From: Bacteriovoracales bacterium
GTDB taxonomy: Bacteria; Bdellovibrionota; Bacteriovoracia; Bacteriovoracales; Bacteriovoracaceae
Assembly: GCA_030149295.1 (NCBI GenBank)
Contig: JASBRV010000011.1
Coordinates: 1-64,000, forward strand
Length of the DNA stretch: 64,000 bases
Direction: 5' to 3'
A model generated the notes under the pieces. It did not search any database and had not been told where the DNA came from. It saw nothing but the letters and a program-made list of their open reading frames with translations. Position numbers and translations under genes: made by a program. Of this stretch, positions 39,983 through 45,268 are shown one piece after another; position 1 is the stretch's first letter; each line of letters begins with the position of its first letter.

Positions 39983-41209
39983 ATGAACAAAACAAAGAAG
40001 CTCCTTCTCGGGGCCTGCCTTCTGTCTACAAGCTTTGCACACGCTCAGTTTTATAAGAATATTGATTTGCCCCAAGAGCTTGAAAACGCCACTGTTGGGG
40101 TAAGACTTACTGATTATGCCCGTTACACCAATGTTATCCCGGGACTAAGCACTTCTGAAGCTCAAGACCTCTCTGATAAGTGGAATCGCTTTGTGGATGA
40201 TGCCTTTGAGCTTGAAAAGGCCCTCAGTGTTTTCTTTCATGACAAACCAAAGACCAATGGTGCTGTTACCATCCTTCCCCTCACTGCCTTTGGGGAACTT
40301 GAAAATGGTAGCCGCTACGCCTTCATTCAGGCCAATGTTCACTTTGATGGCAAGGACTTCTCTGTTGAGCCGATCGATACCATCATGCTTGATGACACTC
40401 AATTTGAGTTTGATGTCTCTCTTAAAGAGAGAAAAGTGGTTATCGCCGATCAGCTCAATAACCTCAAAATGGTCGTTCCTCTAGGTGTAGGCGCTTTTGA
40501 CGAGGGTGTACTCAATGACGAGGTGACTCTTTTGACACCAAGATTTGACTACGGATTCCTCGATCAGTGGACGGCCATTAGTGAAAGAAAGAAGCCCCGC
40601 TACTTTGCTGGTAAACCTTTCTTAAGAATTACAACGGCAGAAAACCCTGCCAATGGTCACACTCCTATTGGCTTTCATGTTCAGCCCAATCTCGATAAAT
40701 TTGTCAGAGCTTTTGATAGTCATGGCTGTATGAGAATGCCCCTGGATGACCTCAATATGGTTCACGATCTTCTTAAAAAGGGACCTCACAGAAGACTTAG
40801 TATTCGCGTGAAGTTTGACTCAGAAGATAAGAGTAACACGCCCTTTCCTAAAACGAATAAGCCCTACAAGCGTGTGCTCAATGCCGGCTCTAAGTCCAAT
40901 CCAGACTACACTCTCGATAGAGATGGATTAGTTCAAACACAAAAGGATTGGAATAATTCTGCACCTATTAGCTTGCTTGAAGACCGCTCTGGGGATCACT
41001 ATCAGGATATCTTTAACTATGATACTGACTGGCGTGAAGCCGCCAAGATGAAGGCCCAACGTGAAAAATGCCTTCAGAAGTATCCCTACGATGAAGAGAC
41101 AAGTCGCTGGAAGCAGAGAAAAATCAAGAAAGAATATGAGAAATGCGTAGAGAGCGCGAAGCCAGACAGCAGTCTTAGAGATCGCCTCTACCGTTTTTGG
41201 GTGCACTAA
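39983..41209 (+). CDS. L,D-transpeptidase (YkuD family), exported
   Basis: Signal peptide; catalytic region FDSHGCMRMPLDDL. Confidence 0.87.
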   Translation: MNKTKKLLLGACLLSTSFAHAQFYKNIDLPQELENATVGVRLTDYARYTNVIPGLSTSEAQDLSDKWNRFVDDAFELEKALSVFFHDKPKTNGAVTILPLTAFGELENGSRYAFIQANVHFDGKDFSVEPIDTIMLDDTQFEFDVSLKERKVVIADQLNNLKMVVPLGVGAFDEGVLNDEVTLLTPRFDYGFLDQWTAISERKKPRYFAGKPFLRITTAENPANGHTPIGFHVQPNLDKFVRAFDSHGCMRMPLDDLNMVHDLLKKGPHRRLSIRVKFDSEDKSNTPFPKTNKPYKRVLNAGSKSNPDYTLDRDGLVQTQKDWNNSAPISLLEDRSGDHYQDIFNYDTDWREAAKMKAQREKCLQKYPYDEETSRWKQRKIKKEYEKCVESAKPDSSLRDRLYRFWVH

Positions 41210-41915
41210 GAATCTTTATCACTTCTTCTTGACCCTCCCTCTTAGCATAATCCAAGGCCGACATTCCCTCTTTATCTCGTATTGAGGGGTCGGCCTTGTG
41301 CTTTAAGAGAAGCTCCACAAGATCGCCCTGCCCTTCAAAACTTGCTTCCATTAAAAGAGTATACCCGGCCTTATTAAAAGTAATATTAGCGTCTGCCCCA
41401 GCTTCAAGTAGCTTTGACACTAATGAAAGTTCAGAAGAGTTTACCGCATAAACCAAGGGAGACTCGCCTCTCTTATTTTGTTCATTGCCATTGAAGCCCT
41501 TTGAAAGCAGATAATCAACACACTCCTCACAAGAGCCCATAATCGCCCAATGAAGAAGCCCACTGCCATCCCTATCCTTTGTCCCTAAAAGAGAAGGATC
41601 TTTTTCTAAGGCGCTTTTAAAGCCGTTAAAATCACCGTTATAAAGTGACATCATAACTGGACTGACTCCATGCTCACTTTTGGCTTGATTAAGACTTTCT
41701 GGAGAGAGGTTATTTTCTGTTTCTGTCCCTTCCTGAGGCAGCTCATCGGGACGGAAGTTCTTACTCTTTTCATTTATTTGAGAAGTGTCTGAAGTGCTCT
41801 GAGAATTATTATGTTGCGGAGGTTTTTTTTCTGAGGGAGAAGGCCCACCTCCAATGAGGAAGTAGGCCACTATTATACTAAGAGGAATTAAAACGAAGAG
41901 TAACTTTTTATCCAT
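41175..41915 (-). CDS. Membrane-anchored ankyrin-repeat protein
   Basis: N-terminal TM anchor MDKKLLFVLIPLSIIVAYFLIGG, polar linker, ankyrin repeats (GSGLLHWAIMGS, GESPLVYAVNS, GYTLLMEASFEGQGDLVELLLKHKADP). Confidence 0.9.
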   Translation of the reverse strand: MDKKLLFVLIPLSIIVAYFLIGGGPSPSEKKPPQHNNSQSTSDTSQINEKSKNFRPDELPQEGTETENNLSPESLNQAKSEHGVSPVMMSLYNGDFNGFKSALEKDPSLLGTKDRDGSGLLHWAIMGSCEECVDYLLSKGFNGNEQNKRGESPLVYAVNSSELSLVSKLLEAGADANITFNKAGYTLLMEASFEGQGDLVELLLKHKADPSIRDKEGMSALDYAKREGQEEVIKILSAPKNGRGDL

Positions 41916-41920
41916 ACCCC

Positions 41921-43195
41921 CTATTCTAACGCTTTAAGCGTCTCAGAGGCAGGAAAAAAGAACTCTTTCTTGTAATTAAATTTAGCACCACCCGTTGTGC
42001 TCCAAAGATGCTCAACGGTCTTATTTTGGACAACCTTTGCATTTCCCTTCCAGCCAGTAAGCTGATGGAAGACCCCAAAAGGAATGCGGCCAGCATCTGA
42101 ATTGATCAATCCAGCAAGAGCACTCGTATGGTAAAGTGTTCCCGTTTTAGCAACCATGGTATTGGCCATACGACTAGAAGTAAGACGCTTTTTAAACGTT
42201 CCCCCATCACTACCTGGCACCGCCACGACTTCTTGAATTGTCGTAGTGCCCCCATCAAGAATTCGATCTAAGCGAGAGATAAGAGTTGTCACCGTACGGC
42301 ATGTCGACTTATTGTCCACACGGCTTCCCTTGCGAGTCGTATTGAGACCAGAGCCCGTGTACATTTTCATCGTCGTCACTTCACCGCTCTCTTCCTCACT
42401 CTTCACTTTTTCAAGATAGGCATCAAAGGCTTTCTCTCCTCCGAGCTTATCAAAAACCTGATCAGCGATATAGTTGTTACTCATGATATTCATAAACTTA
42501 AGATACTTCGAAATAGGTGGTGACAGGTGTTGATAGCCTTCTGCTTGAGGAAAGGGCATGTCATTGCGGTGATAGACCTTTCCTACTTTAAGAGTGAGAT
42601 CACTCCACTTATCTGGAATATTGAGTTCTTCTTTTAAAGAAGAAGGCAGTGACTTCACGTAACTTTGATAAGCTGGCTTTAGCTTATTCCAAGTTGGAGT
42701 ATTCCAAAAATCTTTTAAATTCGCCGCCGTTCGTGCAGGGCTCACTGTCAGCAGATTACCTAGATAGTCTTCTGCTTTAGTATAAACGCGAGTGTTGTCA
42801 TCAAAAGAAATCTCTTCTAATTCCGTCACACCAATCTCATTGAGTTGGGCCAGGAGAAAGAAGAGTTTTCTCTTTGAATAAACGGGATCAAGACTTCCTT
42901 CAATATGAAGTTTCTTACCAGAGAGATAGAATTTCGTCTCATACTGATAATCAGCTCCTAGTTCTTCAATCGCCCACAATGAAGTGATTACTTTTGAAAC
43001 ACTTGCTATGGTGACAAGCTTATCTTCGTTCTCTCCATAGAGACGACCGTTTTCGCGATAGCAGAATGAGTTCTTACTATTGGTAGTATTAAAATCTCTA
43101 TTGAGTTCTCGCCACTTTTCTTCAGGTGATTTTCCAAAAGCTTGGTGGGCGAGCCCAAGAGAGAGAATTAGGGCAGCGACTTTTGTCTTCGTCAT
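41921..43195 (-). CDS. dacB: PBP4/DacB-type D-alanyl-D-alanine carboxypeptidase/endopeptidase, exported
   Basis: Signal peptide; ASVSKVITS (SxxK), MSNNYIADQ (SxN), VAKTGTLYHTS (KTG). Confidence 0.88.
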   Translation of the reverse strand: MTKTKVAALILSLGLAHQAFGKSPEEKWRELNRDFNTTNSKNSFCYRENGRLYGENEDKLVTIASVSKVITSLWAIEELGADYQYETKFYLSGKKLHIEGSLDPVYSKRKLFFLLAQLNEIGVTELEEISFDDNTRVYTKAEDYLGNLLTVSPARTAANLKDFWNTPTWNKLKPAYQSYVKSLPSSLKEELNIPDKWSDLTLKVGKVYHRNDMPFPQAEGYQHLSPPISKYLKFMNIMSNNYIADQVFDKLGGEKAFDAYLEKVKSEEESGEVTTMKMYTGSGLNTTRKGSRVDNKSTCRTVTTLISRLDRILDGGTTTIQEVVAVPGSDGGTFKKRLTSSRMANTMVAKTGTLYHTSALAGLINSDAGRIPFGVFHQLTGWKGNAKVVQNKTVEHLWSTTGGAKFNYKKEFFFPASETLKALE

Positions 43196-43385: not shown

Positions 43386-44372
43386 ATGAAACTACCTAAG
43401 TATCTAAAAACACTAGCCCTTTCTTCAGCCCTAATCGCTCCCCTGAGCGCTCAGGCCGACATGTATGAGGTTCTTAACAACGTTATGGCCACTATTAACC
43501 CCAACGCCGGCATCGTTGGTCCTGTTTATCGTCACAAGACGAAAGTTCAGGACAAATATGGTGACGAACTGGCAAAGATCCTTATCAAAGAAGCCCACAA
43601 CAAAGCGAAGCGCTACTTAGCTGAAGGCAATACACAGGCCTATTATGCTTTTATGGGTCTCGCCTTCACGGTTCCTAATCAAGAAGGACTCATGGTTCAC
43701 TTTCGTGAAGTTCCTGCTGATAAAGACTACTGTAATGATGCTCGTACTCAGGGTAAGAAGATCAAGTCTTCAAAAGCAAAGAAGCAATTTCAAAGCACCC
43801 TTAATAATAGAGGTCTTCTAAGAGATAGAAGCAAAGGCTTTCTTGTTCCTTGTAACAAAATCTCTGGTGTCAGCACCTACAAGCAACTTATCGTTGGTGG
43901 TAGTGACGGCTCGGACGTTGGAATCATGCAACTTAGTGCTCTTTGGCACTATGAAGAATACCTAAAAGAAGTCAAATACGCTTCCGTTCAAAGTACGGTA
44001 AGGTATGGCCTTAATTACCTTGAGCGCCAATTTCGCTCGGCCTTTAGAAACCATAAGTCTCTTGGCTGTTTTAAGAACCAGCGCGGTGGAATTGATTATC
44101 AGAAACTCATTCGTGGCTCTTGGTCCGCCTACAACGGAGGACCTTCACAGAAGTGTCGCTTCGCTGATAGCAATAGTGACTTTGCTGGGCATGATCGTGG
44201 CTTTAAGAAGAACCTCCAAAAGACTCTTGATCTCAATAATGGTGGAGTCTTTGGCTTTGATGAAAGTCTCGAAATTAAATTAACACCAAAAATGAGAGCA
44301 GTAGTTGAAGAAATCGTCTCAAACCTAGAGAATGGTACTAACGTTAGAAACCAAATCGAGACGATACTTTAA
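43386..44372 (+). CDS. Lysozyme/lytic-transglycosylase-like exported protein
   Basis: GAGGAG then ATG at 43386; signal peptide; SDVGIMQLSALWHYEEYL and GSWSAYNGGPSQKCR. Confidence 0.7.
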   Translation: MKLPKYLKTLALSSALIAPLSAQADMYEVLNNVMATINPNAGIVGPVYRHKTKVQDKYGDELAKILIKEAHNKAKRYLAEGNTQAYYAFMGLAFTVPNQEGLMVHFREVPADKDYCNDARTQGKKIKSSKAKKQFQSTLNNRGLLRDRSKGFLVPCNKISGVSTYKQLIVGGSDGSDVGIMQLSALWHYEEYLKEVKYASVQSTVRYGLNYLERQFRSAFRNHKSLGCFKNQRGGIDYQKLIRGSWSAYNGGPSQKCRFADSNSDFAGHDRGFKKNLQKTLDLNNGGVFGFDESLEIKLTPKMRAVVEEIVSNLENGTNVRNQIETIL

Positions 44373-45268
44373 TGAAAAAAAGCTTAATACCAATTTCCCT
44401 TTTAGCAGTAGGCCTTGTGGCCTACTACTTCTGGGGGATGAAAACACCACAGAACACACCAGAAAATACACCGGAAAAAATGATTCCTAAAAGTGCCTAT
44501 TCTGAATTGAATGACACGCAAACAAAGGTCTTCTCCACTGTCTTTGACAAGGAGACCATGAAGTCTCAGGCCTTTAAAGTTTTTAGTGATCCCGCAACTT
44601 CGGCCGATTTCTATCTTGAAGGAGCTAATCTTAGTGCAGAAGCTGGAAAAGAATTTCTAAAAAAAGCCTTTAAGAACTTAAAGGATTGCGCCAAAGAAGG
44701 CTGTGGTCAGGGACCAGATGATGACGGTTTCTATGATCCGGCCAATACTGTTGCCATGATTAGTATGAAGCGAATTTTGGAAGCGGCCCTCATTGACCCA
44801 GAAGGACTTGAAGCAAAGGAGTGGCTGCAAAAGGAAGATCTACTCGACTACTTAGAGACACCTAATCAAAAAGTTCGCCAATTGGCCCTTAAGAATCTTC
44901 TCACACTTCACCAAGGTGAGGAAATTGTCTCCGATATCATGAATAAGGGAAAAGAGCTCAAAGGCTATCAAGCTGCAGATATTGTCGAAGCCCTTCTGCC
45001 TTACGCCAATGCCGGAGATACAGAAGGGTTTGTAGCGGGAGTGATTGACATCATGAGTGGAAAAGATGCTCTTACAATTACAGAAGTTCTTGAAAAATCA
45101 GAAGGACTTAAGGCCAATATAGATCAGATTGAAAAAATTGGTAGTGAATTATGCCCTTATAAGAGAGAGTCTGGGCAGGAAGCAAACTTTAAGGCCATGA
45201 ACTATTCCATGAAAGTCATGGCCCAGAATAATCAGCTTAGCTTTAGTCTCGATTCTTACTGTCGATAA
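44372..45268 (+). CDS. Membrane-anchored helical-repeat-like protein
   Basis: ATG overlaps the upstream TAA; TM anchor SLIPISLLAVGLVAYYFWGM, TPENTPE linker, helical NQKVRQLALKNLLTLHQ. Confidence 0.65.
   Translation: MKKSLIPISLLAVGLVAYYFWGMKTPQNTPENTPEKMIPKSAYSELNDTQTKVFSTVFDKETMKSQAFKVFSDPATSADFYLEGANLSAEAGKEFLKKAFKNLKDCAKEGCGQGPDDDGFYDPANTVAMISMKRILEAALIDPEGLEAKEWLQKEDLLDYLETPNQKVRQLALKNLLTLHQGEEIVSDIMNKGKELKGYQAADIVEALLPYANAGDTEGFVAGVIDIMSGKDALTITEVLEKSEGLKANIDQIEKIGSELCPYKRESGQEANFKAMNYSMKVMAQNNQLSFSLDSYCR

Follow-up and report, generated by a model that had tools for sequence, protein, structure and literature searches.

A DacB-type endopeptidase gene paired with a gene for a predicted membrane-anchored ankyrin-repeat protein in a Bacteriovoracaceae genome: a probable counterpart of Bd3459/Bd3460

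Layout of the locus

The source genome comprises 4.0 Mb in 140 contigs, with a bin contamination of 5%. In the window, that is, the whole stretch of 64,000 nucleotides that was analysed, the ORF calls place both genes of the pair on the minus strand, inside positions 41175-43195 (Table 1). The initial annotation had described a signal-peptide PBP4/DacB protein carrying SVSK, SNN and KTG motifs, followed 5 bp downstream on the same strand by a protein with an N-terminal transmembrane (TM) anchor, a polar linker and ankyrin repeats. All of this was recovered: the first protein matches Pfam Peptidase_S13 (E=1.3e-26) with its motifs at residues 65, 239 and 350, the gap spans 41916-41920, and the second protein combines a helix over residues 3-21 with an Ank_2 match in Pfam (E=3.4e-29) and an AlphaFold model of this architecture. 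An AGGGGG read from the sequence overlaps the dacB stop codon and is a plausible ribosome binding site for the ankyrin gene, which suggests that the two genes may be translationally coupled.

Table 1. Features of the dacB-ankyrin locus and its immediate neighbours, in window coordinates.
Feature	Coordinates	Strand	Basis
DacB-type DD-endopeptidase, Bd3459/Bd0816-like PBP4, domain III spacing absent, 424 aa	41921..43195	-	
DacB Sec signal peptide MTKTKVAALILSLGLAHQAFG, cleavage site approximate	43133..43195	-	read from sequence and heuristic
SVSK catalytic motif, S65-K68 of DacB	42992..43003	-	
SNN motif, DacB residues 239-241	42473..42481	-	
KTG motif, DacB residues 350-352	42140..42148	-	
dacB/ankyrin intergenic gap, 5 bp	41916..41920	-	read from sequence
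Ankyrin-repeat protein of 246 aa with membrane anchor; putative inhibitor for self-protection, counterpart of Bd3460	41175..41915	-	
TM helix of the ankyrin protein, residues 3-21, with neither a lipobox nor a convincing signal-peptidase site	41853..41909	-	
Linker of the ankyrin protein, residues 22-71; polar, low-confidence (disordered)	41703..41852	-	AlphaFold model
Ankyrin domain and capping helix, residues 72-238; five repeats, the sixth of the orthologues missing	41202..41702	-	
Irregular AR3:AR4 loop ITFNKAGY, ankyrin residues 178-185, running into TLLM(D/E)xSFEG	41361..41384	-	
Convergent gene weakly matching YkuD (L,D-transpeptidase), outside the pair	39983..41209	+	Pfam
Divergent neighbour, lytic-transglycosylase-like motifs GIMQLS and AYNGGP, outside the pair	43389..44372	+	no Pfam match

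The YkuD-like gene is conserved beside the pair in the genus, and in the window it overlaps the ankyrin gene tail to tail by 35 bp (41175-41209). On the other side, the divergent gene encodes a secreted protein whose motifs resemble those of lytic transglycosylases, with no match in Pfam, NCBIfam or the PDB. Its linkage to predatory-type dacB is maintained in different genera, at 36-64% identity, also in the absence of the ankyrin gene. Two further genes, at 44372-45268 (+) and 45840-45256 (-), accompany the pair in conserved order within the genus, and neither has a Pfam match.

The enzyme, its partner and their pairing

When the window DacB was compared with all PDB sequences, its top matches were Bd3459 (1.3e-37) and Bd0816 (8.8e-36), while ordinary PBP4s appeared at 6.8e-6 and weaker; the similarity to Bd3459 anticipated for the enzyme is thus present, at E~1e-37 against 7e-6. 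The fold of its orthologue from Bacteriovorax sp. BSW11_IV matches 5cec_A, which is Bd3459 in its complex with Bd3460, with a TMt of 0.83, as against 0.56 for the R39 peptidase. The source genome carries three DacB-like genes, in the window, on contig C85 and at L003. Only the last passes the NCBIfam PBP4 equivalog cut-off of 107.8 bits (181.7, against 73.7 for the window DacB and 47.9 for that of C85), and it is taken as the housekeeping PBP4 of this genome. The spacing between SxxK and SxN, which serves as a length proxy for domain III in place of a solved structure, is 174 residues in the window protein, 181 in Bd3459 and 233 in L003. Predatory DacBs have lost domain III (PMC3276566), and the spacing of the window protein fits this published loss. 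In addition to the SxxK, SxN and KTG motifs, the protein has an exported N-terminus, its signal peptide having been read from the sequence. Taken together, these comparisons support the assignment of the window DacB to the predatory (Bd3459/Bd0816) type and a specific homology to Bd3459.

A scan of the phylum was also performed, covering 369 genomes, and the flanking DNA collected was used to build a tree of 110 DacB-like genes. An ankyrin gene lies next on the same strand for 40 of the 110, and this pairing shows strong phylogenetic clustering, with 8 changes where shuffles gave 32.5. The window DacB falls in a clade of 19 Bacteriovoracaceae genes (support 99), to which Bacteriovorax sp. BSW11_IV also belongs, and all 19 are paired with an ankyrin gene. 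Its nearest orthologues, all from other genomes (L004-L018), are without exception followed by a same-strand ankyrin gene at gaps of -4 to +17 bp, apart from L017 with 616 bp, and a separately deposited MAG, 99% identical and labelled 'uncultured Bacteriovoracaceae bacterium' (L113), contains the same pair; the pairing in the window is therefore not due to chance. In the genome that we take to be Bdellovibrio bacteriovorus HD100 (G132), the locus L073 consists of the Bd3459 sequence, 7 bp and a 220-aa ankyrin protein, which has the length given for Bd3460. Furthermore, DacB and ankyrin distances co-vary within the Bacteriovoracaceae (mirror-tree r=0.81, with 0 of 2000 permutations as high), a correlation to which shared descent contributes. 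In one genome of the genus to which the window belongs (G030, L045:2995-5141, identical to L125) a TAG interrupts dacB, leaving ORFs of 260 and 170 aa, and the downstream ankyrin gene is intact, as if the enzyme had been lost first and the protector kept.

In single-sequence searches, reciprocal best matching singled out neither Bd3460 nor the window ankyrin: among the proteins of its own genome the window ankyrin came third against Bd3460, and in HD100 Bd3460 came third for the window ankyrin. Such searches fail because ankyrin repeats are too alike, and profiles are therefore required. A profile built from twelve DacB-paired Bacteriovoracaceae ankyrins with the window genome excluded (A6) ranked Bd3460 first in HD100, at 114 bits with the next ankyrin at 80, and for two other genomes from the genus of HD100 its top hit was likewise the ankyrin next to dacB. 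Within the window genome the same profile gave 187 bits for the window ankyrin, 105 for the C85 ankyrin and about 52 or less for the others. The reverse profile (A5), run against five Bacteriovoracaceae genomes, had the ankyrin next to dacB as its top hit in three (G001, G002 and G042, the last of these presumably Halobacteriovorax marinus SJ). In the window genome it preferred a large ankyrin protein on contig C123 and the C85 ankyrin, and the window ankyrin reached only 47 bits. Thus the similarity to Bd3460 expected from a profile search held for the clade, whose profile finds Bd3460 first, and was weak for the window protein taken alone.

In an alignment the two families share six repeats that line up in register, and each has an irregular AR3:AR4 loop, with the window protein lacking AR6; the signature TLLM(D/E)xSFEG is conserved in most paired Bacteriovoracaceae ankyrins. 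The longest loop of Bd3460 lies between AR3 and AR4 (PMC4686830), and AR6 touches the enzyme in Bdellovibrio. A sixth repeat was looked for in another frame past the ankyrin stop codon and none was seen; the tail-to-tail overlap with the YkuD-like gene may have trimmed the last repeat. Sequence and fold searches of the PDB with the ankyrin protein alone returned designed and eukaryotic ankyrins and were uninformative on orthology, and NCBIfam models of Legionella effectors matched it far under their cut-offs, reflecting the repeats only. On the whole, the profiles and the alignment support the view that the dacB-adjacent ankyrins of the Bacteriovoracaceae are orthologous to Bd3460.

Predicted membrane anchor and docking, and the distribution of pairs

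AlphaFold models the window ankyrin with a TM helix over residues 3-21, a polar linker of low confidence and repeats at a pLDDT of about 97. A simple rule-based scan of the window clade returned the same arrangement, namely an N-terminal hydrophobic helix that lacks a good cleavage site and, after it, a linker of 42-115 aa (39 aa in one divergent member, L042), whereas the Bdellovibrio set has standard AFA/VRA-type sites and mostly short spacers. On these heuristics and the AlphaFold model the ankyrin domain is predicted to be periplasmic, as the initial annotation had argued from the TM anchor, and the argument appears sound. It is rather unlikely, in our opinion, that the domain is instead cytoplasmic, or that the protein is cleaved and released, in which case the tether would be wrong even if the two proteins were enzyme and inhibitor. 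The topology is derived from simple rules and AlphaFold, and an AFA occurs inside the hydrophobic stretch of some orthologues; against this, the N-terminus of the anchor is positive, most of the clade has no good cleavage site past the hydrophobic core, and the linkers are long. In the published model Bd3460 is proposed to stay behind in the predator while its target enzymes are secreted, with no mechanism of retention given (PMC4686830). The tether would keep the ankyrin protein of the window clade behind in the predator. Searches of the open-access literature on ankyrin pairs in Halobacteriovorax or Bacteriovoracaceae turned up no account of the anchored form, and the conserved tether appears to be undescribed in the open-access papers searched.

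The possible contact between the two proteins was modelled for the BSW11_IV orthologues, whose dacB and ankyrin genes are in frame, so that reading the stop codon as glycine yields one chain with the natural anchor and linker. AlphaFold2 gave for this fused pair of 705 residues, with few paired rows, a mean pLDDT of 86.9 and a pTM of 0.81, with about 50 linker residues below a pLDDT of 50. By our own arithmetic, an unplaced ankyrin would give a pTM of approximately 0.6-0.66. Since the value obtained is higher and would be hard to reach otherwise, the model is consistent with a placement of the ankyrin protein against DacB in this orthologue. The first matches of the DacB half of the model were the Bd3459 and Bd0816 chains of known complexes.

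In silico analysis also revealed a second DacB-ankyrin pair in the window genome (G000:C85:2599-4684, corresponding to L002:684-2784, minus strand), which belongs to a different subclade and encodes a DacB of 438 aa and an ankyrin protein of 258 aa with a gap of 7. It is absent from the near relatives G031, G033 and G035 and present in G073, which is the closest relative of both C85 genes. Contamination was considered as its origin and is not supported, the GC content (0.39) and the tetranucleotide profile lying within the range of the other contigs, in a bin with 5% contamination. Two pairs in one genome were not found described in the papers searched.

Conversely, 19 DacBs of the genus g4 (Bacteriovorax sp. 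according to L119), which has up to two DacBs per genome in a clade close to that of the window, have no ankyrin gene following them (L019-L026, L028-L029, L031-L037 and L040-L041), and profile A6 run over this genus found no ankyrin above 70 bits. Because these sister enzymes exist without a partner, a DacB of the window type does not seem to strictly need an ankyrin protein. The gene after dacB was considered as a non-homologous immunity gene in this genus; it reads by eye as a 3D-domain lytic enzyme and is missing in some species, and no replacement immunity gene was therefore found. One g4 copy of dacB lies in an apparent operon, after a gene for an L,D-transpeptidase-like protein with an SH3-like start and before genes for a protein with a 3D domain, assigned by eye, and for one that resembles lytic transglycosylases.

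A probable self-protection pair and its relation to known systems

We consider it likely that the locus is a two-gene operon of a predatory (or recently predatory) member of the Bacteriovoracaceae, encoding a prey-directed DD-endopeptidase and its cognate inhibitor. DacB would be exported by Sec and build up in the predator periplasm, from where it would pass into the prey, cut peptide cross-links and round the prey cell. The ankyrin protein would sit in the inner membrane of the predator with its repeats in the periplasm, bind DacB and block its access to peptidoglycan until the enzyme departs, and the tether would hold the inhibitor back while the enzyme is released. The initial proposal that the pair is equivalent to Bd3459/Bd3460 is largely upheld by the homology to Bd3459, the profiles that recover Bd3460, the gene order in HD100 and the docking model of the orthologues, with the qualification that the window ankyrin lacks the sixth repeat and by itself matches Bd3460 weakly.

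Enzymes of the DacB type ordinarily work on the wall of the cell that makes them, and anchoring in the membrane would be fitting for a regulator that acts locally. The window DacB could accordingly trim the peptidoglycan of its own cell, with the anchored ankyrin protein regulating or localising it at the inner membrane and neither having a role in predation. This is improbable, given that the genome has a separate PBP4 above the equivalog cut-off, that in the paired DacB the domain III spacing is absent, that this enzyme groups with predatory ones, and that the pair is also present in Bacteriovorax sp. BSW11_IV and Bdellovibrio HD100. That the ankyrin protein protects the cell from the convergent YkuD-like protein or acts together with it, as proposed for Bd1180/Bd1181 (PMC4686830), and lies beside dacB by history only, we regard as most improbable: in HD100 the best single-sequence match of the window ankyrin is not Bd3460 but another ankyrin gene, which is located near 1.10 Mb and may be bd1180, and the YkuD-like gene stays by the pair within the genus, but it is on the opposite strand, the ankyrin-dacB linkage is kept in 19/19 clade members, ankyrin distances co-vary with those of DacB, and the profile search favours Bd3460.

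If the pair is indeed that of a prey-directed enzyme and its inhibitor, it could be envisaged that the inner-membrane tether, with its long flexible linker, guards DacB until it is handed over for export, that pairs have duplicated as separate cognate units in a single genome, and that the sister genus Bacteriovorax dropped the ankyrin protein and protects itself in a different manner, a scenario that we hold tentatively, with slightly more doubt than belief. A conserved tether in a second predator family would constitute a direct and testable mechanism of retention. Furthermore, the paired and unpaired DacB clades offer a natural experiment on enzymes used on prey and on the protection of the wall without an ankyrin protein.

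Among known systems, Bd1180/Bd1181 is a proposed pair of an ankyrin protein and an L,D-transpeptidase (PMC4686830), and resembles the present locus in that an ankyrin protein adjoins a wall enzyme in a predator. It differs in enzyme class, and the YkuD-like gene of the window is convergent with the ankyrin gene, so these two do not form one operon. The probable H. marinus SJ genome is similar to the window in having a pair, whose genes are 9 bp apart and whose ankyrin protein is anchored. Bms2102, the only predatory DacB homologue reported for Bacteriovorax (Halobacteriovorax) marinus SJ (PMC3276566), belongs to the same family as the window DacB and to a different genus, with about 50% identity.

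The closest parallel is Bd3459/Bd3460 of HD100 (PMC4686830; PMC3276566; PDB 5CEC, 5CER), where the two genes likewise follow one another in this order on one strand, separated by a short gap of 7 bp. Bd3460 inhibits Bd3459 and Bd0816 and is needed for self-protection, in agreement with the initial annotation, which had Bd3460 protecting the predator from the enzyme of the adjacent gene, Bd3459; dacB-ankyrin synteny in other periplasmic predators has also been stated, citing the B. marinus genome, so the gene pairing itself is already known (PMC4686830). Both systems combine a predatory DacB without domain III with a separate housekeeping PBP4, and an ankyrin protein that is exported (as predicted here for the window), with repeats in register and an irregular AR3:AR4 loop. 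However, Bd3460 has a cleavable signal peptide and six repeats, whereas the ankyrins of the window clade are signal-anchored with a long linker and that of the window genome has five repeats. Finally, HD100 employs one ankyrin protein for two enzymes, while the window genome has two DacB-ankyrin pairs.
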